Positions 10,027 to 58,832 of a stretch of DNA of 64,000 nt are shown piece after piece; position 1 is the first letter of the stretch, and each line of letters begins with the position of its first letter. This DNA comes from Owenia fusiformis. Taxonomy: Eukaryota; Annelida; Polychaeta; Sabellida; Oweniidae. The stretch covers positions 21,955,936 to 22,019,935 of the forward strand of contig CAIIXF020000006.1 in assembly GCA_903813345.2 (NCBI GenBank), read 5' to 3'. The notes beneath the pieces are model-generated. The model did not search any database and was not told the origin of the DNA. It worked only from the letters and a program-made list of their open reading frames with translations. A program made the position numbers and the translations under genes.

Positions 10027-10029
10027 GTA

Positions 10030-10609
10030 CCCTACTATCACACCAAACTAGTTCTCACTACGTTCTCGAAAACTGGCTTAAACTGTGCACGAACGGATTT
10101 GACGTACTGAGAACCCACTAAGAACCGTTTGGGATCTGTTTACAAACTTCATGAAACTACTAGAACGAGTAGTTCCTCCAGCACTTAGAGCATGCTAAAA
10201 AATTTCTGGTGACCGTCAAAACGTTGCCGAATCGGTTTTAAACTGTGTGCGAACTGAATGAACGTAGCTACAACGTTCTACGGTCTGTTAACGAACTTCG
10301 TGGACTTTCCCGGACGGGGTATGTGATTTAGAATTTTGAATCGATTCAAAATTCGATGGCGACCATACCGTTCTGTAATCAGGTCATGATGACCTTCTAG
10401 ACTAAGAGACGGTTTATACTACGTTGCACACCGACGTGGTGCGACCTGAACGAACTGCGAATGAGATGGACGTATTGAAGACTGTTTATGAACGAAGTAG
10501 CTAATTATTTTAGACATATATCCCGACCGCAGCCAGATTGAGCCCGTTTTACGACATTTTCGTAGGACTGGCAAGAACGGGTAAGAACTAGTTTGGTGTG
10601 ATAGGGGGG
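10030..10609. mobile_element. 580-bp MITE, copy 1 (uninterrupted)
   Basis: The termini are inverted: CCCTACTATCACACCAAACT on the left and a matching GTTTGGTGTGATAGGGGGG on the right. The right flank is TTA and the left flank GTA, a 3-bp duplication with one change. No coding capacity. Nearly the same sequence occurs in inverted orientation at 38152-38950, where it carries a further insertion. The TTA duplication points to PIF/Harbinger-type mobilisation, or TA to Tc1/mariner; I cannot decide between them. Confidence 0.85.
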
Positions 10610-10887
10610 TTACGTACGATAGTATGCAGTGTGAATGTTTTTTTCGAGTAACATAATCCCTTTTTTAAGTTTATCGTACACGTTAATATTTAATTGATTA
10701 GTACTTCAAATATCTTCAATAAGAAATGTGTAGAATTTATATTATACATATATATACAATGTTTTTTGTACAATATTTACATTAAATATACATATGTTGT
10801 ATACAACAACTGAGCATTGGTATATCCAGTTGAGTGGATATATTATATCGTATACTGCTACTACTAGTATACTGTCGCTAACATAAG

Positions 10888-23855: not shown

Positions 23856-26800
23856 TTATTTACGTCTTGCGTTTGTTGTGCTATGTCCGAATGTGTTTCC
23901 ATATCGAAATTTCTCACCTGAAACGACAGACAAATTACATTACACCTTATCTTACAAATTAATCAACACTCAAATATCAAATTCGATACGTGTTTACGTA
24001 TACAATATAGACCAGACCAGACCAAACTCTTGTGGTTCCCATTTCTCACCTTTTAATTTTTGATTTTCTATTCATAATTCAAAAGTCAAAATAAAAGGAG
24101 AAAGAGTATTGGCGCCAGGCAAAATTACGTATTTATTTCAATCTCGGCACTCTTTGAATTCGAGACCTTCCCCTCTGACCTATGATTCGAAGTTTTATAT
24201 GTAGGTACCACGAGCTAGTGTGTTTAGTCTTTAGCCCCGAGGGGAAAATATGCATGCGAGGAAAGGATTCAAAACATTAATAATTTTTATTGTATTAGTA
24301 CAATATTCAATAAAAATATTTATTTTATGTGTACTTTAAACCGAGAAAGTCAGTCTAACCTATTTATCGTGTGGTCTATTGAATTGTTTGATTATGTTGT
24401 GTGGTTTTATGCTTTATTTTTCAATTTTTGTTCATTTTTTCATTTTACCTGGGACATGGCCGGTGTAGTGTGGTACTTGACCAGTTTCTTTGCGATAGAT
24501 GGGGTTGCTGTCTTCTGTTTTCGGTTCTTTTCGCTCAACGGTTACAGATTTTCCTATTGTATTCTTCACCAGTTTCATATCATCGGTGAAACTGTTCAAG
24601 GCATGATGTGTGTTGATGGGGTATGGATGTCCATTGCTCATCTGTGTCAAGATATGCGGAACAAACCCGGTGTAGCCTAGAGAGATATTGTTCCGTTTAC
24701 TAGTTTATGTGTAGAGAGAGGGGGGAGGTCGTCTTTCGATAAAACTATTATGGGGAAAAGTATGGAAACCATATAAAAGTATGAAAAATTGTAAAATAGA
24801 AGAACGTTTGACTAAATACATGGGAAAGTGCGGTGATCAATAGCGTCATCTATTTTACTAAAAAAAGTTCAATTTCATGTTCTCAATCAAATTATCTTAC
24901 CAGATATAAAACTCTTCTGAGGGTTACTGTTGTCCATGTAGTAAGGCGACATCGCAGGTTGGAATGCATTTTGTGATATATATGGCTTGGCGTCCTTCGC
25001 TATGGCTTTCAACGGACTTGGAAATTTAACAGACAGCTGAAATAAATTAAAAAAGTATCATCGTCATATTCATATGCAAATCGATTTTTTGAAAATCATG
25101 TGAAACGTTTATTGTGAAATTCTGAAAGAAGGCAATACAAGGCGATAATACACCCAATGCAATATATTATTTAAAAAAACACACAATACAATATGCAATA
25201 CAATGTGAATGTATCTCTGAATACGTTATGTTATGAAACAAGACAATTCAACACTCAAGTATATCCAAATTGTAGATTATTGAAAACTGGTATTTGAACA
25301 AAAAAGAGTTCAAAGTTGATATTGTAAAACGTACCAATTTAGGATTTGTTGTTTTGTCTACTTTCATTCTTCCTGACTGTATAGAAGCGATATCCCTTAG
25401 TTCTTGGCGGTCCTCGCTTCTCTTTCTTCTGCTGAGTTCGAAATCAGACTGGGCATTCAAAGAATTCTCGGCATACCTGCTTCCAAAGTAGTGCTGTCCC
25501 TTTGGAATATATCCTAGAGAAATTGTGCAAAGTGAGACATACACTGTATGGCCATGTGTTGTCTTTACTTTTTTAATAAAGTAAAACGCGTTGCTTTTGT
25601 TACCTTTTCAAATGTTTCAGATTCAGTGCTATCGTCATGAATACCAGTTCATCTGATTAAAGTGTTTCAATCCTTTTATAAGAAAGCATATCTTAGGCCG
25701 AAGTAGATTCTTTGTTTTGCGTCCCCTTGCTTGCACGATTTTGAGTAAATCAGAAAAAACATATGCTAGGGGCGTCAGAAGGATTTGCCAAGGGAGGGGG
25801 CGACTTTTGGATATGGATGAGTCGTGCGTGAAACGCGCCGCACGCGGAGCAATCTAGGGGGATCTGTATGGGCCCTGAGAAACTATACAGAGTGGTCCAA
25901 AAAAAAGTGAACCCCTGCAACAGGCTACAATTTTCATAATACATGCATGAATTGGCTCATATTATCACATGTTGTAGAGAAAGGTCTAAAATTTTGGTTG
26001 ATGCCATAATTTATTCTCAGTCTTAAATTTTGAAAAAATTACAAGCGTTTAACAAACATGCCTGGAAATTAGATATTGTACAAAATTTTACAAATGTGAT
26101 TCATGGAAATTGTTGAAACACGTTGGATGATCTTAAACAGCTTTCAGTTAGAGATGCAAGTTTAAAACCCTACCATATGACAAAAGGGACACTATTCACG
26201 CAGAAAACACATTTCACACTTTCATTGATCATTTTGAAGCATTTTTAACTGTTCAACAGTTCAGGGGTATGTTACCTACACCAACAGTTAGAGAGGGGCC
26301 TCCTATGGAAGGAAGTTGCCCCCTGTGACCAGGAATCTGATAACCCCTTCATCAAATATCTTTAAAAAATCAAAAAAATCCAATATTCAATGTTTTGAGC
26401 CATATATCATAAGAATTGGTCCATGATTTATGAAGATATTGACATTTCAAGATCATATAGGGGTATGTTCATGATTTCACTGGAAAATGTTTTCGTCTGT
26501 TGAAGCTTAGCACATCTATTTAGATCACACTAACTTTGCAACTAACAAATGTAGGATGCTAGTTTTAAGCCATAATGTGCAAGATTTAAAATTGAACAAA
26601 GTCAGAAAATATTAGTTCTTTAAGACTGCAGCTTAAAAAATTCACAGGGGAAAGGTGTTAAAGGGTTGAAGAATCGCGGATATTGAAAATCACAATTTGT
26701 CCATTTTCAGTAATGTTTGGTTAAGGCTTATAATTTCTGCAAATTTCAAGACTAAGAAAATTGTATGGTATCAACATAAATTTTAGACCTTCCTCTACAA

Positions 26801-28087
26801 CATGTGAAAATAAAAAATAATTCCTGCAAGTAATGAGGGAAATATGGCCAGTTGCAGGGGTTCACTTTTTGGACCACCCTGTATATGGTATAGAATTAAA
26901 TATAATATGAGAAATGAGATATTTTATGCTTGATGTAGTCCAGATACTGACATCGTATCACTTATGTCATTATTACACTTTCACTTTGATTAGCTCTAGA
27001 GTGGTGGGGGGGGGCGTGTGCCCCCAACGTCCTCCCCCTCCACACGCCAAATAGTATCAAATAGTAGCAATCACAACGGTTTGAAAGTACCATCGCATTT
27101 CGTTCAATCAGAATCAGATGAAATGGTGGATAGTTTTATGTTCGTCAAAATTGACAGTGTTATTGATTACTTTGGCATACATTGTTTATTTTCTTATTTT
27201 TACCCTTAAATAATAGCTATATGTTTAAATATATTGTAAAAAACGTATAGATATGTGTTTGTAATCACTGCAAATTGGTATGTCATCCCTTTTTATGCCC
27301 TTGAAATGTATTCATTTCTCAGCAAACAAGTTTGGGTTTTTTCTTGAGTTTGCGTTTGTTTTCCTTGTACCCTTGCATGATTTGGATTTTGCCAGGACGC
27401 AAAACAAAGAATATATATATATATATAGTAATGAAGAAATTGTTGTAAACATCTTACGTTTTCCTCAAGTACAGTATGCACTGTGGGACATGAAAAGGAA
27501 TGTTATGAGCCCAAAAATTCCAAATCTGGAAATAAAGGTTCCCCCAACTACAATGAGGACGGATATTGATGACTGGTGAATCTATTGAATCCGGAAAACA
27601 TAAAAGACTGCATCACCACGTGACAAAAGGGGCATCTGCATACCAAACCTTTGAACGGGAGTGTAGTATAGAAATTGTATATAAAATTACCTGTATACCC
27701 AGGAACCATTTTGTCCAGCATTTTCTGATCACCATAGCTTTGTGTTCGATTCCTTAAACCCATGACTCTACTTTCTCTCTGGGACTGTTGGTCATTTTTG
27801 GAGGGATCAATATTTGCCAGCACCAATCGTCCAGAACTTGCAACTTTTTTGTTTGTTAAAAGATCGGAGGTAGTTCTTCCGAAAGTGGCTCCGATCTGAT
27901 ATTCGAACTGCGGGCAAAATCCACCATATCTTTAAATAAGAATACAAACAAATCAATATACAATCCCGTATTGTTTCGCTTAACTAAGTTATTTCAATGT
28001 AAATTGTTTATGATGAAAGATTATACTGTAAAAAGCTTACCCCGGGGTATGGTAGGGATCAGGGGTCATCAGTATACTCTTGGGCAT
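23856..28087 (-). CDS. CIMIP2B: ciliary microtubule inner protein 2B-like (FAM166B family), six exons
   Basis: Exons, in transcript order: 28041-28087, 27691-27929, 25335-25513, 24901-25036, 24449-24676, 23856-23917. All introns are GT-AG and all phases agree, giving 296 residues ending at TAA 23856-23858. The protein has the family layout: TPGYGGFCPQFEYQIGATFG (residues 14-33), VPGYTGYIPKGQHYFGSRY (91-109), SPYYMDNSNPQKSFISGYTG then FVP (185-207), and a final VPHYTGHVPG then EKFRYGNTFG. Known relatives are microtubule inner proteins of ciliary and flagellar doublets, so an axonemal role is inferred from family. AATAAA overlaps the stop region. Intron 2 carries a mariner-type MITE. Assignment to paralogue B rests on the multi-repeat layout and length and is less sure than the family. 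Confidence 0.9.
25888..26881. mobile_element. mariner-type foldback MITE in CIMIP2B intron 2
   Basis: Left terminus CAGAGTGGTCCAAAAAAAAG, right terminus reading CAGGGTGGTCCAAAAAGTG in reverse complement, with TA on each side (25886-25887, 26882-26883). Inverted similarity continues about 150-200 bp inward, including a shared CACATGTTGTAGAG block. No transposase. The flanks at 25765-25885 and 26995-27055 are GC-rich and may be the two halves of an older element it entered. Confidence 0.85.
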
Positions 28088-35634: not shown

Positions 35635-37160
35635 CAGGGTGGGCCAAAAAACGCCACTTTTTTCAAGACACTACAACTTTTTTATTTTCCAACCTACATA
35701 CTAAAAGGGGAGTTCAATTGGTCCTCCACCCTATTTGATGATATACGAGGGTATATCATAAAGTTCTCATAATATTTCTCTAACTTTTTTATTTTTCAAT
35801 ATATTCTAATGAAATTTTCATGAAAGCTGCAGTATAGAACACTCTATTAATCTATCAAAAATATTTGGTATAACAGAAATATTAGATAAGAAATGGTACC
35901 CGGGGCAAATAAAAATAGTTGAGAAAATGAGCTTAATTAACCATGTTTATATACATAATAAACTCTCATAAATTATCAAACACATTAAAATGTTATCTTG
36001 AATATGTTGTTAAAATGCTTTTACTATAAAATAAATTGATCATGTGAATTGTGTGATGTCATAGGGGATGCTTACATGCTTCATTAGATGTGATACCAGA
36101 CTCTGAGAATCAAAGCTTATTATGATCAGAAATGACTGAATAAGATCATGCATAGATGCAGAAATCATCAGAAAAATAAAATTCATACCTACAAAAAGTC
36201 TAGATAAGTTCGAAAAATCCTTTTGCTTATACTAAAGATGATCTAAAACAAATATGTTGCAAAGATATCAACAAAATTACCCTCCTATTTGTAGTCTAAA
36301 CATATTTAAGATGAACTAAAGGGGGAAAATCGACTTTCCTTAGAATATTTGACAAAATAGTTGTAGTGTCTAACATCACTTCTAATGAAGCATTACAATC
36401 ATCCATTATGAGATCACACAATTCACATGACCATTATAATTGTTTTCAAAACAGTGAAGAACACATAGTATTTAACAATTTAATGTGTTGCATAGCTTAT
36501 TTGATAACTTATGCATTTAAACATGGTTAGTTGGGGCTATTCTTGCACGATTTTTTATTTGCCCCAGGTGCCTTGATTTCCGGTTACTATGGCAACCATT
36601 TCTTAAATAATATTTCCGTTATACCAAATATTTATTAACAGATTGATACAGCATTCTATACTACACATTCTGTGAAAAATTCATCAGAATATATTGAAAA
36701 ATAAACAAATTAGAGAGATATTATGAGAACTTTATGATATACCCTCGTATTTTAGTTTTAGTCGCCTTGCTGATATTGCAGTATCAATGAAATGTTAGCT
36801 AAGTTTTTTCAACCTGTCTTAATTGCCAGCTTTAGTTGAGTAATTTTCTAGATTGGGTGCCTTCATACAATCTCCTGGAGACCTTCCCATACCCTATACT
36901 CACTGGGGTTTGCATCAGGGCTATTAGCTTGGCGATCATCAGGCCGTGTCAGTTCAGGAACATTTTGCAAATTATGCTTATTTCTCATGGCACACCACAT
37001 GTTTAAGTGAGACGCTGGTGACATATTTTATTCAAGTAAAAGTGTATAATTCATGATCCATGGCTAGATAACAACCTCAAGTTTCATTTGGTATGTAAAT
37101 TATGATTTCATATAAAAAATTATAGCATTTTGTTGAAAAGGTTTTTTTTGGCCCACCCTG
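35635..37160. mobile_element. mariner-type MITE (outer element)
   Basis: Inverted termini CAGGGTGGGCCAAAAAA (left) and its partner TTTTTTTTGGCCCACCCTG (right), with TA on both sides (35633-35634 and 37161-37162). About 520 bp once the nested element at 35746-36747 is removed. No transposase. Confidence 0.88.
35746..36747. mobile_element. nested 1002-bp foldback element, mariner-type ends
   Basis: Ends CGAGGGTATATCATAAAGTT and its inverted partner, with TA at 35744-35745 and 36748-36749. The two arms, about 350 bp each (35746-36100 and 36390-36747), are inverted copies with small differences, leaving a loop of about 290 bp. It lies inside the 35635-37160 element and so is younger. No coding capacity. 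Confidence 0.88.
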
Positions 37161-37162
37161 TA

Positions 37163-38148
37163 TATCATTATCGATTTATCCATCAGTCTTAAATAGTTGA
37201 AATTTTTTAATTAAGATACTCAAAGAGATCTCAACCTTATTTTGTGCAGTTAAACCTGGGATGTGTACTTAGTTATTGTTTCAGTCTTACAAAAATAAAA
37301 TACTTTATGATTTGTTAGTTATATGATTTTTATCCGCAAATAAATATGATATCTGTTAAGAAAAAATGAGTACTTAATTCCGAGAATGCCGAATCTCTTA
37401 TTCATTCAAACATTTGACAGTAATTGTATTGTATTGGTTACGTGTTAAGTTTTTGTTACTCTTGGGGTAAATGGCAAGTAAATATGTTGAAAATGCCATC
37501 GCTCGTTCATTAATGATGCCAAGGAAAACACCCATTTCAAAGGCAGTTTAATTATTGCAAGATCATTTTATTGAGATGGTTGTGTTCGAAGTCTCCCTTT
37601 CATCAATGGCAGTATAGAAGTACCATGATGTAACATGGTATCTAATTTCTTTTCAACCGCGTTTTTATGTGACATACATCCCTAAATTTTCATTGGATAT
37701 GGATAGCTTATCAAGGCAAATCATAAAGCATCCTTACATACAACCAGGACCAAGACTCGCCAAGCCGATCAAGATGTGCTAATAACCACTTTGATTTCAC
37801 TCTCGTTATGGTGTTGCATCTTCCAGAGCAGGTATCCAGAATCCGTACCTCCTTCTAGCTTCCCCCTGCTATAACCAATTTGGAAGCGCCCGATTAAACT
37901 GAACCACGTGATCTAATTATGTGCAATGACTTATACATGATTTCTGGCGCAGTGTTGCTACAGCCAATCAGATTGCGAGTTCTTAATCGGGGAAATGCTA
38001 ACTGCTTATGGCAGGGGGTACGAAGAAAGAATATATTCTGGATTTTGAAGCCCTGTGATCGGAGGATGTGGTGTTGAGGTTGGAATAGATGGCAGGTCAA
38101 GTGTTTATTGGTGCTTCCTGTTGGATTCTATTGGATGACGTCTACCTG
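37163..38148. other. gene-free stretch
   Basis: Only short frames without motifs. No repeat recognised. Confidence 0.35.
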
Positions 38149-38151
38149 TTA

Positions 38152-38950
38152 CCCCCCTATCACACCAAACTAGTTCTTACCCGTTCTTGCCAGTCCTACG
38201 AAAATGTCGTAAAACGGGCTCAATCTGGCTGCGGTCGGGATATATCACACTACTATACCTTGCATTAGGTGTTCATGAGCAACCCATTTGGCTTATTAGT
38301 AATGATTATGTATTTGTTTTTATTTGTCTGTTCCTTATGAATGGTTTATCGGTTGAAAATTAGATGCTAGTAAGGCACTTTCAAAAATATATTAAACAAT
38401 TCAATTAGACAAACAAAGTATCTTATGCATTTCTAGGTGTTAGGTATAGTAGTGTGTATATGTCTAAAATAATTAGCTACTTCGTTCATAAACAGTCTTC
38501 AATACGTCCATCTCATTCGCAGTTCGTTCAGGTCGCACCACGTCGGTGTGCAACGTAGCATAAACCGTCCCTTAGTCTAGAAGGTCATCATGACCTGATT
38601 ACAGAACGGCATGGTCGCCATCGAATTTTGAATCGATTCAAAATTCTAAATCCTATTCCCCATCCGGGAAAGTCCATGAAGTTCGTAAACAGACCGTAGA
38701 ACGTTGTAGCTACGTCCATTCAGTTCACACACAGTTTAAAACCGATTCGGCAACGTTTTGACGACCACCAGAAATTTTTTAGCATGCTCTAAGTTCTGGA
38801 GGACCTACTCGTTCTAGTAGTTTCATGAAGTTTGTAAACAGATCCCAATTAACGGTTCTTAGTTGGTTCTTAGTACGTCAAATCCGTTCGTGCACAGTTT
38901 AAGCCCGTTTTCGAGAACGTAGTGAGAACTAGTTTGGTGTGATAGGAGGG
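38152..38950. mobile_element. 580-bp MITE, copy 2 (interrupted)
   Basis: The inverted counterpart of 10030-10609, flanked by perfect TTA repeats (38149-38151 and 38951-38953). It is 799 bp long because a 211-bp element plus its 5-bp duplication has been inserted; without them it is 583 bp. The remaining sequence is highly similar to copy 1. Confidence 0.92.
38246..38456. mobile_element. 211-bp nested MITE with TATAT duplication
   Basis: Perfect 15-bp inverted termini CACACTACTATACCT. TATAT directly flanks both sides (38241-38245, 38457-38461). The empty site is preserved in the sister copy at 10516-10520, where the sequence reads gac-ATATA-tcccg (minus-strand cggga-TATAT-gtc). Excising the element and one duplication restores the sister sequence exactly at the junction. 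No coding capacity. Confidence 0.95.
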
Positions 38951-38953
38951 TTA

Positions 38954-39965
38954 GAATTAATAGTATTACTAAATTATAAACTATTGCTAATTACTTACTC
39001 GAACTTAAGATAAACAAATGTTGCATTTCCTTTGTCATATCAAGTTTTTCATTGCGTTATACTTAATGAAGTATCAAATATATTGCCAATTATTTTTTAT
39101 TCGCAATAAGTTGATAATAGGAAAATGCAATCTTACTTAATAGATCAAAGTGATAAGAATTATGTTCAAATTAGACAGGTAGTGTTCATTCCCACACCAA
39201 GTACTTATAGGTGGCTAGACAATAATCTGTTTAATAGTATCTGGGTTATCTTGACTTGTCAAAGATAAGAAAAATGTATCTGTATACCTTAAAAAATCTT
39301 TAAATGTTTTCTATCAACTATTTCAAAGTATATTGCTTAGCGATAAATAGGTATGGATGAACTAAGTGTGTATTGCAACGGTTTGAACGCAAAAGTCTGT
39401 CATTATACATTAGGGTCATGATCATATGCATGTTGCCAATTTTTCTAAGGGGGGGGGGTCTCTAAATCCCCCCCAACCCACTCACGCATAAAATATTTCC
39501 ATGCTGAACAAACTCACTTCGCACCAAGGGCAATCCTGACAAAATTCAGATGGAAAGGGGCCTAAAAGTTTGGCCGAAATATGTGAAAATAATGCCCATA
39601 TTTTACCCTTTACAAAGTATTCGACTTCACTTCTTAAAAGGAGAGTTTCGTCTTCAGTAGTTTTATAACTTAACTCTGCACGCAGGGAACACATGATCCT
39701 GGTGCCACTTCCAAGTTTCGTTATAATCTTACACATTGAAGACATTTGTGTTGCACAAGCTCGTTGAAAGCATCCTAATTATATTAACACCTTTTCTTTG
39801 TCGATTCAGTTGTCATTAGCGTTGATGTCATCCTTAATTGTTCTTGTTTTAGTGACTTAAGGGGCGAACCATTGCTACGGATTGAGGTGCATTTCTATTT
39901 TTCCCTCGAGCAGATTTCTTTATATTGAATAACTGTAGGAGTTATGCCAAATATTCACAACATGC
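38954..39965. other. gene-free stretch with a G/C homopolymer tract
   Basis: A G-run followed by a C-run at 39450-39480 (ggggggggg...ccccccc) can form a small hairpin. A minus-strand frame at 39482-39745 shows no motif. Confidence 0.35.
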
Positions 39966-40200
39966 ACTGGCGGATCCAGCCCCAACCCCCCCCCCCCCCC
40001 TCCCCCTGTGGGCCCAGAGAAAAGTTTCGGGGCCAAAAGTTTTGTAGGGCCCCAAATGGGCCTTTAAATGGGTCTTTTTGGGCATAATTTGGCATTTTAG
40101 CCCGAATTATCAAAATATGGGTCTTAAATTTTCAAAATATGGGCCCAATATTTGGTTTTAGGGGCCCAAAATTTTTTCAAATGGTTGACCAAATGTGTTG
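39966..40200. mobile_element. truncated hAT-like element end
   Basis: Begins CACTGGCGGATCCAGCC, followed by a long C-run and then GGGCCCAAA-type words. The reverse of the same terminus (CAGGGGCGGATCTGGGAACC) closes the segment at 56310-56485. CAGGGGCGGATC-like ends are common among hAT-type elements. The partner end was not found here. Confidence 0.5.
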
Positions 40201-41639: not shown

Positions 41640-42830
41640 GCAATATAAAATTTGGGCCAAATCCATCCACTGGTATTTGAATTATCAAAGATTATGTTAT
41701 TATGAAACATGGTTGCCATTTTGAAATTCAGCTGTCATCTTTAGATTTCTTCTTTAGCAAAGCTCCTCTGTCATAAGGCATCAGCATATAGAATTTAATC
41801 CAAATCCATCAACTGGTACTTGATCGAGTTATCAAAAATTACATGTTTAATTAAAATGGTGGAGATTTCAATATATATTTTTTGTAATTGTAAAATTTAT
41901 TATAGTGTCTTGGGTAAAATTATACATAAAATATCAATTAAAACGAACCCCGGGCCGACATCGGCCTATAAGACACCTGTCTTATCTATATAGAACCCGC
42001 TCCCTGGTCCTGAGCATTTGGCCACAGGCCCTGGCAACGTATAGGTAGATTCCAGGCTCACTCATAAGTATTTTAAATTGTTCTTCGTGATTTTCTGGAA
42101 ATAATGTTAATTTAGATGTCACTTTATGCAACATATTCAAGCCACCTTGAAAATTTCTTCTCAAGCAGAGCTCCTTTTTCCCTCAACATCAGCATATAAA
42201 ATTGAAACCAAATCCATCCACTGGTATTTGAGTTATCAATGATTACGTTTTTTACGAAAAATAGCAGCCATTTTGAAATTCAGTGGCCATCTTGAAAATG
42301 TCTTCTCGGGCAGAATTTCTTTGTCTCTAGGCATCAGCATATAGAATTTGAACCAAATCCATAAACCGGTATCTGAGTTATCAAAGGTTACGTTATTCTA
42401 TGAAAAATGGCGGCCATTTTGAAATTTAGCTGCCTATGCCTATGTATGTATAGAGCTCCTATGTCCCTAGTCATCAGCATGTAAAATTTGAACCAAATCC
42501 ATTGAATGGTATTGGTATGGTAAAAAAAACTAAAAGTTGTCAAAGATAACGTTTTTTACGAAAAATGGCCGCCATTTTGAAATATAGCGGCCACCTTGAA
42601 AATGTCTTCTTGAGCAAGGTTCTTTTGTACCCAGGCAATAGCATATAAGATTTGAACCAAATCCATCTACTACTATTTGAGATATCAAAGATTATATTTT
42701 TTCCGAAAAATGGCCGCCATTTTGAATTTAGCGGCCATATTGAAAATTCCTTCCCGAGCGGAGGTCCTACTACCATAAGGAATAAGCCTATAAAATTTGA
42801 ATGAAATCCGTCGACCGGTATTTGAGTTAT
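41640..42830. repeat. diverged tandem array, ~150-bp units
   Basis: About six diverged units share the order: CAGAGCTCCTTTGTC-like, CATCAGCATATAAAATTTGA, CCAAATCCATCCACTGGTAT, TGAGTTATCAAAGATTACG, AAAATGGCGGCCATTTTGAA. The array is interrupted by a LINE 3' end at 41872-42164. No open frame runs across it. Confidence 0.8.
41872..42164 (-). pseudogene. LINE 3' end with ORF2 C-terminus
   Basis: A minus-strand frame ends LYVARACGQMLRTRERVLYR at a stop, then a 3' UTR with TCTTATAGGCCGATG and an A-rich tail. The other LINE end in the window, at 60925-61350, ends SIAKACDRMLKRREHSIYKT with a similar UTR. These are the carboxy ends of related non-LTR retrotransposons, truncated at the 5' side. Confidence 0.75.
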
Positions 42831-43008
42831 TGCCCGGACACACGAACGGACGGACGAACGTCTTTTCTATATCCCCCTCGAACTTCGTTCGGTGGGATAA
42901 TCAAACATGAAATCCTTATTGCCCGGGCACACAAACGGACGGACGAACGTCTTTTCTATATCCCCCTCGAACTTCGTTCGGTGGGATAATCAAACATGAA
43001 AGCCTTAA
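42831..43008. repeat. two-copy 89-bp tandem duplication
   Basis: Two nearly identical 89-bp units (starting TGCCCGGACACAC at 42831 and TGCCCGGGCACAC at 42920). Each contains GGACGGACGAACGTC and a palindromic CGAACTTCGTTCGG. ACGGACGGACGAACG-type words are typical of the ends of certain invertebrate interspersed repeats. The near identity indicates a recent duplication. Confidence 0.9.
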
Positions 43009-43944
43009 TGCATTCCTCAGATTATTTTCTAAAACCTACATCAAACCTACATCATTGTCTTTGCTTCAAATCAGTTAAATAGTGACATCGTACATCTAAA
43101 GTGTACTCCGGTATATTTTGTCACTGTACCTTGTCGATGGTTAGGCGTGAATAACGATTTAAGATTTAATTCTTAGTATTTCTTTCGAAAAAATAATTTC
43201 ATTCTGGGTCAGAATGAACCATATAAATAACATAATCTTCCAAGCAGGGGTCATAATTTTAACACTAGAATGTAAAACAAGGTTACATCCCTCACATTCA
43301 AGATCTAATCGTTTTTCCTAATTCGTCTTACATATACAATTACTGCACGTCTGTTAGAAGTGTAATATAATGACTAGGTTTTACGTCCTTCTATTTGGAG
43401 TGATTTAATTAATTACAAACATAAGATTGTGTCACGAATATTGCGTAGATGGCATATACGTAACATAACTCATTTTCAAAATAGACAGTTACTTTTGGTT
43501 TATATTACAAAAAATGAATCTCATTGTTTTTTCTGTTTATTTAGGTTTATATATTTTATTAGTCTTTAGTGTTGGGGAGACCGGGGCAAACGGGAGAATG
43601 ATTTTTCTCAAGCTCTTGTAATGATGAAAGCGTTTGTCAATAGCGTCATCATTGATTGTGGTGTCGGATGCCATCTTGAGAAATTGCAGACATCAGGAAC
43701 GCATTGGAACCATCTAAGGGATAATTTAATATTTAGAGCATCTTGATTAATCATATATCTCTTTCAATAAATTACATGTAAATCAAAACGTGTCTGTAGT
43801 CTAGAGCATACCCAAAATGCTGATTTTAACATCTTATGTATATATTTCCCTAAATTAATGAAATAGAATTAAGAATGCAGGGATAAAGCGGAAATGTAAA
43901 AGAAATATGGCTGATAGTATGGTTTAAAATGTATTCACACATAC

Positions 43945-50911: not shown

Positions 50912-51308
50912 CGTAAAATGTTAAGTACTAATCATAAATATATGAAAACTTAACGGTGTAAGGAAATAAGATGTGGGCACATACTTACCAAATATGAACA
51001 AGATTGGTTCATTAATTTCATAATTAGATATGTCTGTGCAAAACTTTTTGAACAACCCTTGTATTTTTCAAACAGGAATCACTCCTTCCCCACATTTTCT
51101 TCATCTTCCAGTTTTGCACAAAGAGTGCACTTTTGTGCCTAGAAGACTGGTGAGAAGATCTGTTTTGTAAAATGTACAGTGCTCACCATAAATAAATGAC
51201 ACCTGGATTTGTTGGAATGAGGATTTCCCATGTTAAAAAGAAGAGAATTTTCAAGAGGCTACACATCAGTGGATGAGAGTATACAATATGTAAAAATAAA
51301 AAACTTAA

Positions 51309-52310
51309 GGTAACGGTAAAGTTAATCTAAAGTACAAAAATGGCAGCCATATTTTTGGGGTAAAGTCAAAAAAATTGTATCGATTTTCCTTATATGAGAA
51401 TGCATTATGACTAAAGAGATATGTCAAAGAAAACTTCACATTTAAACGCATTTTTCATAACTATGAATTGGAGGTGCATGGGTCCCCAAAGCTAGCATGA
51501 ACACCGTGAAATGAGGCTAATTTTTTAAAATTTCAAGGAGTAGCCTTGCAACAGTCACACATTTGCAAGAATTCAAAATTTCCACAAATCATCTTACCTC
51601 ACCAAGGAACATCGAAGGAGCGTGAAGATGTGCACTTCTTGCATAGATAGAGTATGATGGAGCTCAAACCATAGTTCCTTATAAATATTTCATGTCAACC
51701 ATTTTGTTTGCCGGAACTACTTCTAGACTTCCTGATTAATCCTCATACAAGTTTTGTGACTTCACCAAATGGCATGGATTACCACTAGTATATTTTATAT
51801 TGTAAAATAACAGCATAATAATCATGATAGATAGATGATTGAGGCTTTATAAATGATAAACAATGGATACACGAGTGAGGATTACTTTAGACTAGAAAAT
51901 AGTCCCAGCAAACAAAATGGTGGACATGAAATATTTAGAATTCACAATGGTTTGAGCTTTATAATACTCTAACAATATAAGAAGTACATATTTCCATGCT
52001 CCTTTGATGTTCCTTGATAAGTTAGGATGATTTGTGGAAATTTTGAGTCTTACAAATGTGTCTCTGTTGCAATTCTACTCCTTGAAATGTTAAAAAGTTA
52101 TCCTCACTTCACTGTCTCCATGCTAGCTTTAGGGACCCATGCACCTCCAATTCAAGTTATAAAAAATGTGTTTGAGTGTGAAGTTTGCTTTGACATGTCT
52201 CTTTAGTCAGGAAATGCATTCACATATAAGGAAAATAGATACAAAATCTTGTGACTTTATCAAAAAATATGGCTGCCATTTTTGTACTTTTGATTAATTT
52301 TACCGCTACC
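51309..52310. mobile_element. module A: 1002-bp palindrome
   Basis: Left end GGTAACGGTAAAGTTAATC; right end in reverse complement GGTAGCGGTAAAATTAATC. The arms of about 440 bp match with scattered differences around a loop of about 130 bp. TTAA on both sides. No coding capacity. Confidence 0.88.
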
Positions 52311-52314
52311 TTAA

Positions 52315-52794
52315 GGTGCCATGATACTTAACAGGAAATGACAAGAATTTTGCATTTTTAGACATTTTTTGAACAAAGATACAGAGTTCTGTTTTGACCT
52401 CCAGTCAATTCAACTAATTCCACATACCATTTACAGATCCAGGATCACAATGTTCATGGTCAGGATGATTCTAAACATGATGAAATTACCTTTTCAGCTC
52501 TCTGAAAATGTGACTGAAAATAGCTAAAAGTAGGAGGTAGGAAAGGTCACTGAACAGAATCTTTTGAATTTTTCAGAAAATGTGCCCAATATATTGCTCT
52601 AAATGATACAATCTTTGAAAATTTGATATCATTCATAGAAAAATAAAAAATAAATAAAAAAACTGATTTGAAAAGCGATCTATTTTCCTTTTTATGACCG
52701 CCATTTTTGTTTCAGACAATTTTCTGAAATTTCAAAGAATGTATCAGTTAGAGCATTATTTTGGGCACATTTTCTGAAAAATTCAAAAAAGGTC
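52315..52794. mobile_element. module B: 480-bp copy of module H lacking its right-arm end
   Basis: Starts GGTGCCATGATACTTAACAGG-like and follows the left arm and centre of the palindrome at 55141-55897. It stops within the right arm near AAATTCAAAAAAGG and meets TTAA at 52795. This is a truncated relative. Confidence 0.75.
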
Positions 52795-52798
52795 TTAA

Positions 52799-53356
52799 GG
52801 TTCAGCTGGAAAGTAACATTTTGGTAAAAAATTGCTATACCTGCACATTGTTATTTTCTCGTACAAAATTAAGTATGAAGTCACGTGTGTATTTCCTTGC
52901 TTCAGGAAAGGATCATTACACTGTCTATTTTTAGTAAACCTGGAAACAGGTCAATGGTAGTTCCTGTGTTGTCTGAAAACTTTGAAAGAAAATTTGGAAA
53001 AATAGAAAGTGTGAAATATCGGAATTTCCTGGAGTTCCCATTGAACTCCTACCAGATATTCTAAAAGAAGACAATGCAATGATACTTTCCTGAAAAAAGC
53101 AAGGAAATTGACACATGCCTTCATACTTTTCCTGTGTTGTCTGAAAACTTTGAAAGAAAATTTGGAAAAATAGAAAGTGTGAAATATCGGAATTTCCTGG
53201 AGTTCAATCCAGATATTCTAAAAGAAGACAATGCAATGATACTTTCCTGAAAAAAGCAAGGAAATTGACACATGCCTTCATACTTTATTTTGTACCAGAA
53301 AATAACATGTGCAGGTATAGCAATTTTTTGCCAAAATGTTACTTTCCAGCTGTACC
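52799..53356. mobile_element. module C: ~400-bp palindrome with internal 166-bp duplication
   Basis: Ends GGTTCAGCTGGAAAGTAAC and the inverted GTTACTTTCCAGCTGTACC. A segment beginning CCTGTGTTGTCTGAAAACTT is present at about 52962 and again at about 53128. Without it the length is close to the intact copy at 55902-56305. Confidence 0.85.
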
Positions 53357-53505
53357 TTAAGGCCCCAAAAAGTGGGCCTTTTTGGTCATTACTGGGCCTT
53401 TTAAGGAAGTACACACATGCCTTCATACTTAATTTTGTACCAGAAAATAACATGTGTAGGTATAGCAATTTTTTACCAAAATGTTACTTTCCAGCTGAGC
53501 CTTAA

Positions 53506-53919
53506 GGTCAGGGTGCATGATGAGAAATTTTCTGCATCCCTCAATTGAGTCACATGTTATTTTTCAAACAAGATTCACTCCTTCCCCACATTGTCTACAT
53601 CTTCCAGGTTTGCACAAAGAGTGCACTTATGTGCCTAGAGAAGACTTGTGAGAAGATTTATTTTGTAAAATGTATAAAAAACGAGAAAATTCAGTGAAAA
53701 AAATTTCTGAAAATTTTCTGAATTTTTTCACTGAATTTTCTTGTTATTTATTCACTTTATCAAACCATTCTTCTCACAGGTCTTTTCTAGGCACATACGT
53801 GCACTCTTTGTGCAAACCTGGAAGATGTAGACAATGTGGGGAAGGAGTGATTCTTGTTTGCAAAATAACATGTGACTCAATTGAGGGATGCAGAAAATTT
53901 CTCATCATGCACCCTGACC
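53506..53919. mobile_element. module E1: 414-bp palindrome
   Basis: Ends GGTCAGGGTGCATGATGAG and an identical inverted partner. The arms meet at a short centre near 53710 (CAGTGAAAAAAATT). TTAA on both sides. The arms differ at a few bases that identify them. Confidence 0.92.
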
Positions 53920-53923
53920 TTAA

Positions 53924-54718
53924 GGCTCAGCTGGAAAGTAACATTTTGGTAAAAAATTGCTATATCTAGAGTCCATTTCACTGCTTCATTTCGTCAGTAG
54001 AACGGCAAAAATAAGAAATTGGGACACCATTGTGCAATAATATATGGAAAAGTATATTCATAATGTACATGAATGACATTTGTATATCTTGGATTGCTTC
54101 TAGTTTGGCTTATAATGTGTGTGGCCTCTTATATTTGGATGTTCCTCTGCCATGTTATTTTCAATAAGATTAACATGGCTGAAATTCTTCAAATTACAAG
54201 ACGGCACAGGCTTATTGCACAAAAAACTAAAAAATCTGAAATATAGAAATGTCATTCATGTACATTATGAATATACTTTTCCATATATTATTGCACAATG
54301 GTCTCCCAATTTCTTATTTTTGCCGTTCTACTGACGAAATGAAGCAGTGAAATGAACTCTACACATGTTATTTTCTGGTACAAAATTAAGTATGAAGGCA
54401 TGTGTGTATTTCCTTGCTTTTTTCAGGAAAGTATCATTACAATGTCTACTTTTAGTAAACCTGGAATGGGTCAATGGTAGCTCCTGTGGTGTCTGGAAAC
54501 TTTGAAAGAAAATTTGGAAAAATAGAAAGTGTGAAATATCAGAATTTCCTGGAGTTCCCATTGAACTCCTACTAGATATTCTAAAAGAAGACAATGTAAT
54601 GATACTTTCCTGAAAAAAGCAAGGAAATTGACACATGGCTTCATACTTTATTTTGTACCAGAAAATAACATGTGCAGGTATAGCAATGTTTTACCAAATG
54701 TTATTTTCCAGCTGTACA
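53924..54718. mobile_element. module F: copy of module C carrying a nested palindrome
   Basis: The same element as 55902-56305, split after about 44 bp by a 393-bp palindrome (53968-54360, ends AGAGTCCATTTCACTGC and inverted GCAGTGAAATGAACTCT). Without the insert it is about 402 bp. The target duplication of the inner element is not clear. Confidence 0.85.
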
Positions 54719-54722
54719 TTAA

Positions 54723-55136
54723 GGTCAGGGTGCATGATGGGAAATTTTCTGCATTCCTCAATTGAGTCACATGTTATTTTTCAAACAAGAATCACTCCTT
54801 CCCCAGAGAGTCTATATCTTCCAGGTTTGCACAAATAGTGATCTTATGTGCCTAGAAAAGACTTGTGAGAAGAATGTTTTGATAAAGTGTATAAAAAACA
54901 AGAAAATTCAGTGAAAAAATTCAGAAAATTTTCAGAAATTCTTTTCACTGAATTTTCTCGTTTTTTATACATTTTACAAAACAAATCTTCTCACAAGGCT
55001 TTTCTAGGCACATAAGTGCACTCTTTGTGCAAACCTGGAAGATGTAGACAATGTGGGGAAGGAGTTATTCTTGTTTGAAAAATAACATGTGACTCAATTG
55101 AGGAATGCAGAAAATTTCCCAACATGCACCCTGTCC
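54723..55136. mobile_element. module E2: 414-bp palindrome, opposite orientation to E1
   Basis: Same family and same length as 53506-53919. The arm-specific differences near the centre (TTGATAAAGTG versus TTTTGTAAAATG) are swapped between left and right, so this copy is inserted the other way round. Confidence 0.88.
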
Positions 55137-55140
55137 TTAA

Positions 55141-55897
55141 GGTCTCATGGAAGTTAACAGGAAGTGACAAAACAAAAAATGACAAAGCCATGCTGGATTT
55201 TGAAAATTTTTTGAACCAAGATAACAGAGTTCTGTTTGGACCTCCAGTCAGTTTAACTAGTTCCAAATATCATTTACATGACCAGGAACACAGTTGAAAT
55301 GGTCAGAATGACCATAAACATGATAGAATAACCTTTTCAGCCCTCTGAAAATGTGACTAAAAAATAGCTAAGAGTAGGTGCTCAGGAAAGGTCACTGAAC
55401 AGAATCTTTTGACTTTTTCAGAAAATGTGCCCAATATATTGCTCTAAATGATACAATTCAAAAAAATTTGATATCATTCTTAGAAAAAGAAAAAATTGAA
55501 AAAAACTGAATTGAAAATCGATCTATTTTCCTTTTTACTACAGCCATTATTGTTTCAGACGATTTTTTAAAATTTCAAAGATTGTGTCATTTAGAGCAAT
55601 ATATTGGACACATATTCTGAAAAAATCAAAAGATTCTGTTCATTGACCTTTCCTGAGCACCTACTTTTAGCTATTTTTCAGTCACATTTTCAGAGGGCTA
55701 AAAAGGTTATTTTATCATGTTTATGGTCATTCTGACCCTTTCAATTGTGTTCCTGGTCATGTAAATGATATTTGGAACTAGTTAAACTGACTGGAGGTCC
55801 AAACAGAACTCTGTTATCTTGGTTCAAAAAATTTTCAAAATCCAGCATGGCTTTGTCATTTTTTGTTTTGTCATTTCCTGTTAACTTCCATGAGACC
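55141..55897. mobile_element. module H: 757-bp palindrome
   Basis: Ends GGTCTCATGGAAGTTAACAG and an inverted partner. The arms of about 350 bp match closely around a centre near 55510. TTAA on both sides. No coding capacity. Confidence 0.9.
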
Positions 55898-55901
55898 TTA
55901 A

Positions 55902-56305
55902 GGTACATCTGGAAAGTAACATTTTGGTAAAAAATTGCTATACCTGCACATGTTATTTTCTGGTACAAAATAAAGTATGAAGGCATGTATCAATTTTTCT
56001 GCTTTTTTCAGGAAAGAATCATTACATTGTCTTCTTTTAGAATATCTGGCAGGCGTTCAAAGGGAACTCCAGGGAATTCTGATATTTCACACTTCCTGTT
56101 TTTCCAAATTTTCTTTCAAAGTTTCCAGACAACACAGCAGCTACCATTGACCTGTTTCCAGGTTTACTTAAAGTAGACAATGTAATCATACTTTCCTGAA
56201 AAAAGCAAGGAAATACACACATGCCTTCATACTTAATTTTGTACCAGAAAATAACATGTGCAGGTATAGCAGTTTTTTACCAAAATGTTACTTTCCAGCT
56301 GAACC
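55902..56305. mobile_element. module C3: intact 404-bp member of the C family
   Basis: Ends GGTACATCTGGAAAGTAACA and inverted GTTACTTTCCAGCTGAACC. The uninterrupted reference for modules C and F and the 97-bp fragment at 53405-53501. Confidence 0.88.
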
Positions 56306-56309
56306 TTAA

Positions 56310-56485
56310 GGCCTTATCTTTTAATTCAGGCCAAATTTTGAAGAAAATGGGCCTCAAAATTTCAAAATTTGGGACCGCTTTTGGGTTTTAGGGGCCCAAC
56401 ATTTTTTCCCCTCAAGCGCGGAAGTTCTTTTCTCTGACCTGAAATTTGCCCCCCCCCCTTGTTGGTTCCCAGATCCGCCCCTGGG
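56310..56485. mobile_element. right end of a hAT-like element
   Basis: Runs from GGCCTTATCTTTTAATTCAGG to a terminus that reads CAGGGGCGGATCTGGGAACC in reverse complement. Related to 39966-40200. The 40-bp TTAA-bounded piece at 53361-53400 has similar GGGCC-rich sequence, so this element may be the original host of the TTAA chain. Confidence 0.55.
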
Positions 56486-56489
56486 TGCT

Positions 56490-57190
56490 ATCTACAGGTT
56501 GGATCCATTCCCTGTGATCTGAATCTTACCATCTGGAGTAAGCCATCCTCTACTTTCTGCTTCATGTTGATTGTGACTCATCACTTTTAGAAATTCCCTG
56601 TATAGCAAACATTGTATCCAGGTCAATGTATATCATTGATAGTATAGTAGACACAAAGAGCTATTATAGGGTTTTTTAGTTATTATAGCGTTTCTAGGAA
56701 TAACTTTTTAATCCCCGATGTAATCCCATGCCATGTATAAATAAAATGGACCCATGGGTGATGTGAGCCGTTCCGACGTATGCTATTGGTTGAAAACATA
56801 TGTATAGGAAACTATTCACATAATCACATAACTAACTAATTAGTGATTGGAGCACTTGAGAGTGTAATATTTCTCAAACAATCAACTAGAGGCAGTAAAT
56901 AATGTCATTATGCTTCATAAAATACATAATGCGTACAAAGACGTAGGGGGTTTCAATGTTCAGCACGTCTATTTGTTATTTATGATTTAGGCCCCGCAAA
57001 AAGTTTTTCAATAGGACCTTTTCAGGAAACTCTATTTTGTAGAAAAAAGTTAGATATTGCAACATGTCATATCATCACACGATCCGATGAATTGTTTGGA
57101 ATGGGTTGATGCCCTTGAAGAACATTTCTCAAAGATGTAAACCAATATTCTACCTTACTAGCATCCCTAGGGATGTCATTGAAGACCATT
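56490..57190. other. gene-free stretch
   Basis: No gene or repeat recognised. Confidence 0.35.
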
Positions 57191-57527: not shown

Positions 57528-57562
57528 TTGGGATCACATCAAGAAACGTAATCAGCTTAAGT

Positions 57563-57925
57563 CTATGTCGATGCATTAGACATGAGAATTTTTGTTATAA
57601 TTTGCAATTAAATTTTTTTATCCACAAAACAGCAATATGTTGCAAACAGAATGCCTCTGTCCCAAATGTGAATATGGGGTAGGGTGAATATGTGGTGAAA
57701 CTCAATATGTAAAAAGGTCCAGATGGGTCTTGATTGTGCTATCCTATGGTATAGAGCCTCTTTAAAGGGTCTATTTCTTCAATAAGATATTTTCTAATTA
57801 TTGAATCATAAATTCATTTTGGGACAGGGACATTCTGTTTGCAACATATTGCTGTTTTGTGGATAATAATTTTTATTGCAAATTACAGCAAAAATCCTCA
57901 TTTCTAATGCACTGACATATACAGG
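57563..57925. repeat. foldback, ~110-bp arms
   Basis: 57563-57675 and 57818-57925 are inverted copies sharing CCACAAAACAGCAATATGTT and neighbouring sequence. It directly abuts the mariner-type element at 57922. Confidence 0.8.
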
Positions 57926-58830
57926 GTGACCCAAAAAAATGCAACCCTCAATTTCTTCTATATTTTATTGCTCTGAGATTTGGCACACAAGGACTTCATT
58001 CAATGTGGGATCCTCTGGCAAAGTTTTAATAATCATAGTCTTATATTGATAGAGTTATGGTTGTTTCAAAATATGCTCCAGATGTCGTCAATGTCGTTGA
58101 AAACAAACTTGCTATGTTCAAGGAAAACTGTTCACAACACGGATGCATTTGCAGCCATTGCTTATTGGAGTTCTGCAATTGCGGTAGGGTTATTTTCATA
58201 CACATTATCCTTTAAATAACCCCATTTATAGAAGTCAGGGGCATTAAGATCAAGACTGTGGGATGACCATAGGTTCTCCGTCCTAGGAGAGATAATCTTC
58301 TCATAGAAATGACTAGTGAGCCAGGCTATGCTATCATTAGAAGTGTGAGGAGTAGCTCCATCCTTCTAGAACCACTGTTCTTGTCTATTGAAGTCTCTAT
58401 GTCACTCTAGAACTGCCTCGAACTTCCTGGGAACGCCAATATTGCGCTGTGTGTTAACAGTAACAGTGTTGCCATTATCAACCTCAAATCAAAAGGGGCT
58501 GATGATTTCATGTTTGGAAATTGGCAGCCCAAGCTGTGCATTTAACAGAATGAAGGGGCCTTTGAAGCATTTCATCTGGAATTTGTGATCCCAGAACACA
58601 TTATTTCTTGAGTTTACATGTTCAGAAAGAAGGGAATGTGATTCATCCGAAAACCTAACATTGGAAATGGACTACATTTGGAGCATATTTTGGAATGACC
58701 ATAACTCTATCAATATAAAACTATGATTTTTGAAACTTTGCCAGAGGATCCCACATTGAATGAAGTTCTTGTGTGCCAAATTTCATAGCAATTAACCTCC
58801 ATTTAAGGGTTGCATTTTTGGGTCACCCTG
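57922..58830 (-). mobile_element. mariner-type element with broken transposase
   Basis: Termini CAGGGTGACCCAAAAAAATG and an inverted partner; TA flanks (57920-57921, 58831-58832). Inverted similarity extends about 150 bp. Minus-strand reading gives transposase blocks KDGATPHTSNDSIAWL, then ISPRTENLWSSHSLDLN and FYKWGYLKDNVYENNP, with several stops. These match the QDGATPH and HSPDLNP..F..WGYLKD blocks of Tc/mariner DDE transposases. The gene is dead. Confidence 0.9.
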
Positions 58831-58832
58831 TA

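Follow-up and report, generated by a model that had tools for sequence, protein, structure and literature searches.

A chain of foldback elements at 51305..56309 of a 64-kb stretch of the Owenia fusiformis genome (contig CAIIXF020000006.1, positions 21,955,936 to 22,019,935; hereafter, the window) is probably built of non-autonomous foldback transposons of several families, which target TTAA and have Kolobok-type GG...CC ends, a multimer that grew as one copy after another inserted into the TTAA bordering an earlier one. The chain itself is confirmed. Eleven TTAAs (starting at 51305, 52311, 52795, 53357, 53401, 53502, 53920, 54719, 55137, 55898 and 56306) bound ten pieces, nine being copies of four foldback families (A once, B twice, C four times, D twice) and one a 40-bp fragment of F, an older repeat rich in GGCC. 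The order from left to right is A, truncated B, C, F piece, one-armed C, D, C carrying a further element (E), D, B, C (M1 to M9 in Table 1). Seven copies, 404-1002 bp long, are intact and have TTAA at both ends (7/7), and two are truncated. Elements abut without further spacer, with one TTAA at each junction.

Seven modules, the intact copies, are inverted repeats over their whole length, with matches at 16 to 20 of the terminal 20 bases. Two were folded, M5 (family D) giving one long hairpin and M8 (family B) a long hairpin with a branched tip, both far beyond shuffled controls. The sequence-only reading, which described ten TTAA-joined modules, mostly palindromes or pieces of palindromes, is borne out by the 11 TTAAs, the 7/10 end-to-end inverted repeats and the two truncated copies. 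Its statement that nearly all sites read CCTTAAGG was generous: this sequence is exact at 7/11 boundaries, the other four (AC-, TC-, TT- and CA-TTAAGG) differing 5' of TTAAGG. GG directly 3' of TTAA is found at 11/11 chain sites. Among the 16 full ends, 15 start with GG and 12 with GGT, the right end of M6 starting with TG.

All seven window occurrences of CCTTAAGG lie inside the chain, whereas order-2 Markov sequences contain on average 0.59 per 64 kb (at most 2 in any of 100 runs) and 0.026 per 5 kb (at most 1 in any of 500 runs). A scan of the window for TTAAs 48-4000 bp apart, with at least 18/24 terminal bases matching as inverted ends, returned 23 rows, 21 of them in the chain, and none in five Markov control sequences. 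The two rows off the chain (40428 and 40548) are without GG start, and lie within larger inverted repeats extending past the TTAA. A search for families A-D in the rest of the window at E 1e-3 gave nothing except a D relic (51062-51176), and no intact copy; each family numbers 1 to 4 copies in the window, high copy number in a genome being a usual mark of MITEs (miniature inverted-repeat transposable elements). No match was found between the chain and plasmids, between short D and C patterns and viral contigs, or between the short C pattern and bacterial and archaeal genomes. Rfam gave no family at its threshold over the window, and a scan for transfer RNAs in the bacterial setting gave none.

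The elements are provisionally assigned to Kolobok from the rules for ends and target duplications. In the available parts of the papers cited here and below, Kolobok elements are marked by TTAA target duplication and 5'-RR...YY-3' termini (PMC9587614), piggyBac elements by CC[C/T] termini (PMC2872659). In the chain, TTAA is present at each of 11 boundaries, the flanking F sequences join at one TTAA, and GG is found at 15/16 full ends, which fits the Kolobok and not the piggyBac rule, as the earlier remark that the GG start looks less like piggyBac had anticipated. The long terminal direct repeats of KolobokP are missing, intact copies being inverted repeats throughout, and the elements are short, non-coding inverted repeats with a fixed target duplication, as expected of foldback elements and MITEs. 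No transposase, which in Kolobok is of the DDD/E type with C/DxxH, was found in 20 scanned of the 34 window open reading frames (ORFs) of at least 90 amino acids. None of the five such ORFs lying in the chain matches Pfam above cut-off, and eight element ends resemble Xenopus Kolobok terminal inverted repeats (TIRs) no better than chance, 9-95% of random sequences being as good.

KolobokP encodes an I-PpoI-like nuclease, and I-PpoI cuts leave TTAA overhangs (PMC9587614). The 15-base I-PpoI site scores 10 or 11 at 4/11 junctions and at 17/535 other TTAAs, an excess which is no evidence for a homing endonuclease because the common TTAAGG(T) alone gives it, and the link was rejected. A common sub-terminal motif was not used either. 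Among six family pairs only B-C stands out, its similarity being matched by 0.4-0.6% of 1500 random GG-starting 24-mers; A-B is borderline (6-8%), and the other four range from 24 to 59%.

Arms of C elements (about 100 bp compared) are of two types, alpha and beta, set apart by few diagnostic bases. Every full C copy has one alpha and one beta arm, M3 and M6 in the + and M9 in the - orientation, the one-armed M4C being also -. Identities are 90.9-97.9% for matched arms of different copies, 89.0-91.9% for the arms of one copy and 87.9-94.0% for unmatched arms; the classes overlap (94.0% for the right arms of M3 and M9), and the case depends on the diagnostic bases. In the two D copies, M5 (+) and M7 (-), identities are 95.0% and 92.5% for matched arms, 89.6% for same-side arms, 91.5% and 89.1% within copies. 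Palindromes formed in place would have the most similar arms within a copy, and an amplified block would keep order and orientation; neither holds for C and D. As arm diagnostics are kept between copies found in both orientations, C and D members are, judging from their sequences, independent family copies rather than one amplified block. The single block that the sequence-only reading had named as an outcome speaking against it is contradicted by copy order and orientation.

Some copies have decayed or changed further. The left end of M4C fits a deletion between two AAGG motifs. M6 was later struck by E, a 391-bp foldback with TA duplication, as judged by the uninterrupted site in M4C. A duplication of about 160 bp, 93.5% identical, is found within M3 (52961-53286). 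The truncated right end of M2 (52785-52798) reads AAAAGGTC-TTAAGG, and may be a deletion scar or the remnant of a lost module.

The target sites of the first insertions can be reconstructed in part. The 40-bp piece at 53361-53400 and the right flank from 56310 both resemble repeat F, a second copy of which resides near 39966. Joined at one TTAA, the two flanks align to this copy in one run with a score of 137.5 (46 and 105 separately), reached by 0/2000 random and 0/2000 shuffled left pieces (best 131 and 134, respectively). Having F on both outer sides, joining at one TTAA, sub-chain 2 (53405-56305) thus sits in a TTAA of F, its putative founder context being CTTTTAAGGCC. The founder context of sub-chain 1 (51309-53356) would be AACTTAAGGCC, provided that both flanks were once neighbours. 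F was rejected as left-side host of sub-chain 1, the score of 37 being reached by 119/1000 shuffles and 346/1000 window pieces. Both putative founder sites read TTAAGGCC, a sequence with three occurrences over both strands of the window, two of these being the founder sites. GG after or CC before TTAA is found at 25 of the 535 TTAAs other than the chain boundaries.

Serial insertion into a TTAA adjoining an earlier element, as first proposed from the sequence, fits the anatomy of the GG...CC copies. It is supported by the exact TTAA boundaries of the seven intact copies and the single TTAA at each junction, by C and D copies that face either way yet keep the asymmetry of their arms, and by the presence of F on the two outer sides of sub-chain 2. 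Supplied in trans, a transposase would cut between TTAA and GG, and would prefer a TTAA already beside GG or CC; each insertion would then create new CC-TTAA-GG junctions, which would surpass other TTAAs as targets. The outcome would be no different if transposase sitting on resident ends guided the next copy to them. Some results weigh against growth by repeated, self-directed insertion. Neither a solo copy in the window nor a transposase in the ORFs scanned was found, the F join exceeds controls by a small margin (137.5 vs. 134), the founder site of sub-chain 1 presupposes formerly adjacent flanks, the left one not being F, and the orientation argument excludes both B, in which M8 arms are 95.3% alike mutually and M2 is 82.7-83.4% identical to them, and the single-copy family A. 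The fifth is the value for intact copies in the test of internal TTAAs, none of which was used. With insertions placed in random order on TTAAs inside growing chains, the chance of this is 0.22 x 0.06 = 0.013 over nine copies, which speaks for a preference, but 0.051 when the seven intact copies only are considered.

Counting flanking TTAAs as equally hot lowers the figure to 1.5e-5 when 500 bp on each side are included and to 1.1e-6 with 1 kb, values biased because the chain was picked for contiguity. If insertion is uniform and as dense as the lack of intact copies over 59 kb permits, the probability of a six-member chain is 5e-11 per starter, and 1.4e-4 at twenty times that density, both by a simple growth approximation. 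A preference for junction TTAAs is likely, if unproven. The earlier suggestion that elements create their own preferred target receives moderate support from the unhit internal TTAAs (p 0.013) and the TTAAGGCC founders, weakened by the value for intact copies. Whether the process is fully self-seeding is a more tentative matter: transposase would prefer a TTAA beside GG or CC, element ends would rebuild it, and unrelated families served by the same transposase would assemble autocatalytically into growing, spacer-free chains, ordinary TTAAs being largely spared.

The same figures leave some room for a hot region devoid of self-targeting, in which TTAA transposons accumulate because the DNA is open or tolerant and junctions are hit by chance. 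The within-chain values of 0.013 or 0.051 are compatible with it, 1.4e-4 per starter is not negligible over a large genome, and further foldback elements and repeats are present in the window. Yet no intact copy of the four families is found elsewhere in the window, and equally hot flanking TTAAs give 1.5e-5 (500 bp each side), though with the bias due to choice by contiguity, so that this explanation is unlikely. Less probable still is the capture of a concatemer, excised elements being ligated via self-complementary TTAA ends and the chain inserted as a unit. The cohesive-end step is inferred from piggyBac chemistry. Such a process predicts the single TTAA per junction and the random order and orientation observed, and needs no target preference, but the degree of divergence varies (79.0% identity for A arms, 95.3% for M8 arms, about 83% for B copies, 92.5-95.0% for matched D arms), a point softened by the fact that arms differ ancestrally and ages are not firmly readable, and two such events would be required, as the sub-chains occupy separate TTAAs 44 bp from each other. 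Segmental or satellite duplication of a composite unit, or hairpin-driven duplication in place, is hardly credible: the modules D-C-D together make up a long inverted repeat (53500-53953 / 54689-55142, 93%), M4C and the left arm of M6 are close relatives because they have two private variants in common, and M8 arms are closer to each other than to M2, but copying of a block, whether direct or inverted, would not give the series C(-) D(+) C(+) D(-) B C(-), the arm differences of C and D recur between copies, and Tandem Repeats Finder (period up to 500) gives no array in the chain.

MITE multimers, TTAA arrays and arrays with common target-site duplications are already published. Rice has 11% of its MITEs in multimers, as cited in PMC10664404. 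Kolobok-type MITEs of Xenopus (T2-MITE/XKol) resemble the chain elements in TTAA duplication, purine-rich, GG-containing ends and non-autonomous inverted repeats, yet T2-MITE ends are AGGRR after TTAA rather than GGT, and end-to-end chains are not described in the available part of the paper (PMC6004289). KolobokP, a Kolobok lineage of many marine invertebrates, frequently forms multimers, but neighbours have in common terminal direct repeats of about 450 or 660 bp, whereas the chain joins several palindrome families by TTAA (PMC9587614). Coral CMITE arrays are also made up by TTAA MITEs, but these have piggyBac CC[C/T]T ends, and within an array both elements and spacers are alike, which is ascribed to replication slippage; the chain has mixed families, no spacers and both orientations (PMC2872659). 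Adjacent palindromic MITE-like M1-M2 repeats of pithoviruses have one target duplication in common, as chain neighbours do, but the duplication is TA, and two families of about 140 bp alternate regularly (PMC10664404). SaTar arrays in guayule and rice are likewise non-nested arrays of unrelated small elements, formed by Mu-like elements in microsatellites and not at a 4-bp site provided by their own ends (PMC5907723). Tetris is a non-coding foldback element seeding arrays, but its duplications are 8-10 bp, and arrays originate from repeats internal to the TIRs (PMC4079207). The available part of a paper on silkworm MITEs (PMC2997013) holds nothing on multimers. No report of a mixed-family TTAA chain was found in the open-access literature, searched mostly at listing level, and four families in one spacer-free TTAA chain, with a testable rule of self-targeting, appear new within the literature searched.

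According to this rule, a transposon whose ends and target duplication rebuild its best target should stack in chains, sparing other sites. Should TTAAGG prove to be favoured by solo insertions too, one could speak of a landing-pad strategy for DNA transposons, which, if true, would explain the build-up of clusters of long inverted repeats in animal genomes. Such clusters are fragile, and could yield double-stranded RNA if transcribed.

Table 1. Elements, relics and flanking sequences of the chain (window coordinates)
Feature	Position	Strand	Details
D-element relic	51062..51176	+	129 bp left of the chain, without TTAA boundary; 92.2% to M5 left and M7 right arms over 115 bp
M1, family A foldback, 1002 bp	51309..52310		TTAA both sides; 17/20 terminal bases; arms 79.0% alike over 485 bp
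M2, family B left part, right arm lost, about half element	52315..52794	+	85% to M8 over 467 bp; left end GGTGCC at TTAA
M3, family C, intact	52799..53356	+	19/20 terminal bases; alpha arm left, beta arm right; internal duplication of about 160 bp
Older repeat F piece, 40 bp, between the two sub-chains	53361..53400	+	score 44 vs. F copy 39960-40200; best of 500 shuffles 30
TTAA, left target-duplication copy of sub-chain 2 (53405-56305)	53401..53404		53357-53404 joined to 56310-56490 aligns through TTAA to F
M4C, family C, alpha arm only	53405..53501	-	97.9% to M6 left arm over 97 bp; junction sequence fits a deletion between two AAGG motifs at the new left end
M5, family D, intact, 414 bp	53506..53919	+	20/20 terminal bases; one long hairpin
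M6, family C, intact ends, carries element E	53924..54718	+	16/20 terminal bases; alpha arm left, beta right
E, 391-bp foldback inside M6, TA duplication	53969..54359		vs. uninterrupted M4C site; arms 81.6% alike
M7, family D, intact, 414 bp, orientation opposite to M5	54723..55136	-	right arm to M5 left arm 95.0%, left arm to M5 right arm 92.5%, same-side arms 89.6%
M8, family B, intact, 757 bp	55141..55897		20/20 terminal bases; arms 95.3% alike over 320 bp; hairpin
M9, family C, intact, 404 bp	55902..56305	-	18/20 terminal bases; beta arm left, alpha right
TTAA, right target-duplication copy of sub-chain 2	56306..56309		alignment to F
Right flank, remainder of repeat F	56310..56485 (approximate end)	+	aligns to 39960-40200; ends near GATCCGCC, other copy begins near GGCGGATC

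Elsewhere in the window, ORFs carry rhodopsin-type receptor, fucosyltransferase, SNAP-25 and ciliary-protein domains; none of 7190 candidates was a relative of the receptor ORF at E <= 0.001. Two more foldback-type inverted repeats abut at 57561-57922 and 57920-58832, the second with TACAGGGTGACCC ends (TA-type), and end-to-end stacking may perhaps extend beyond TTAA elements. An inverted repeat at 25884-26885 has TATACAGRGTGGTCC ends resembling those of 57920-58832, and the one at 35743-36750 has identical first and last 30 bases (ATACGAGGGTATATC...). At 42166-43011, a tandem array of units of about 145 bp adjoins two 89-bp units with 95-97% identity, and a repeat 96-99% identical resides in opposite orientations at 10029-10613 and 38148-38951, about 28 kb apart.

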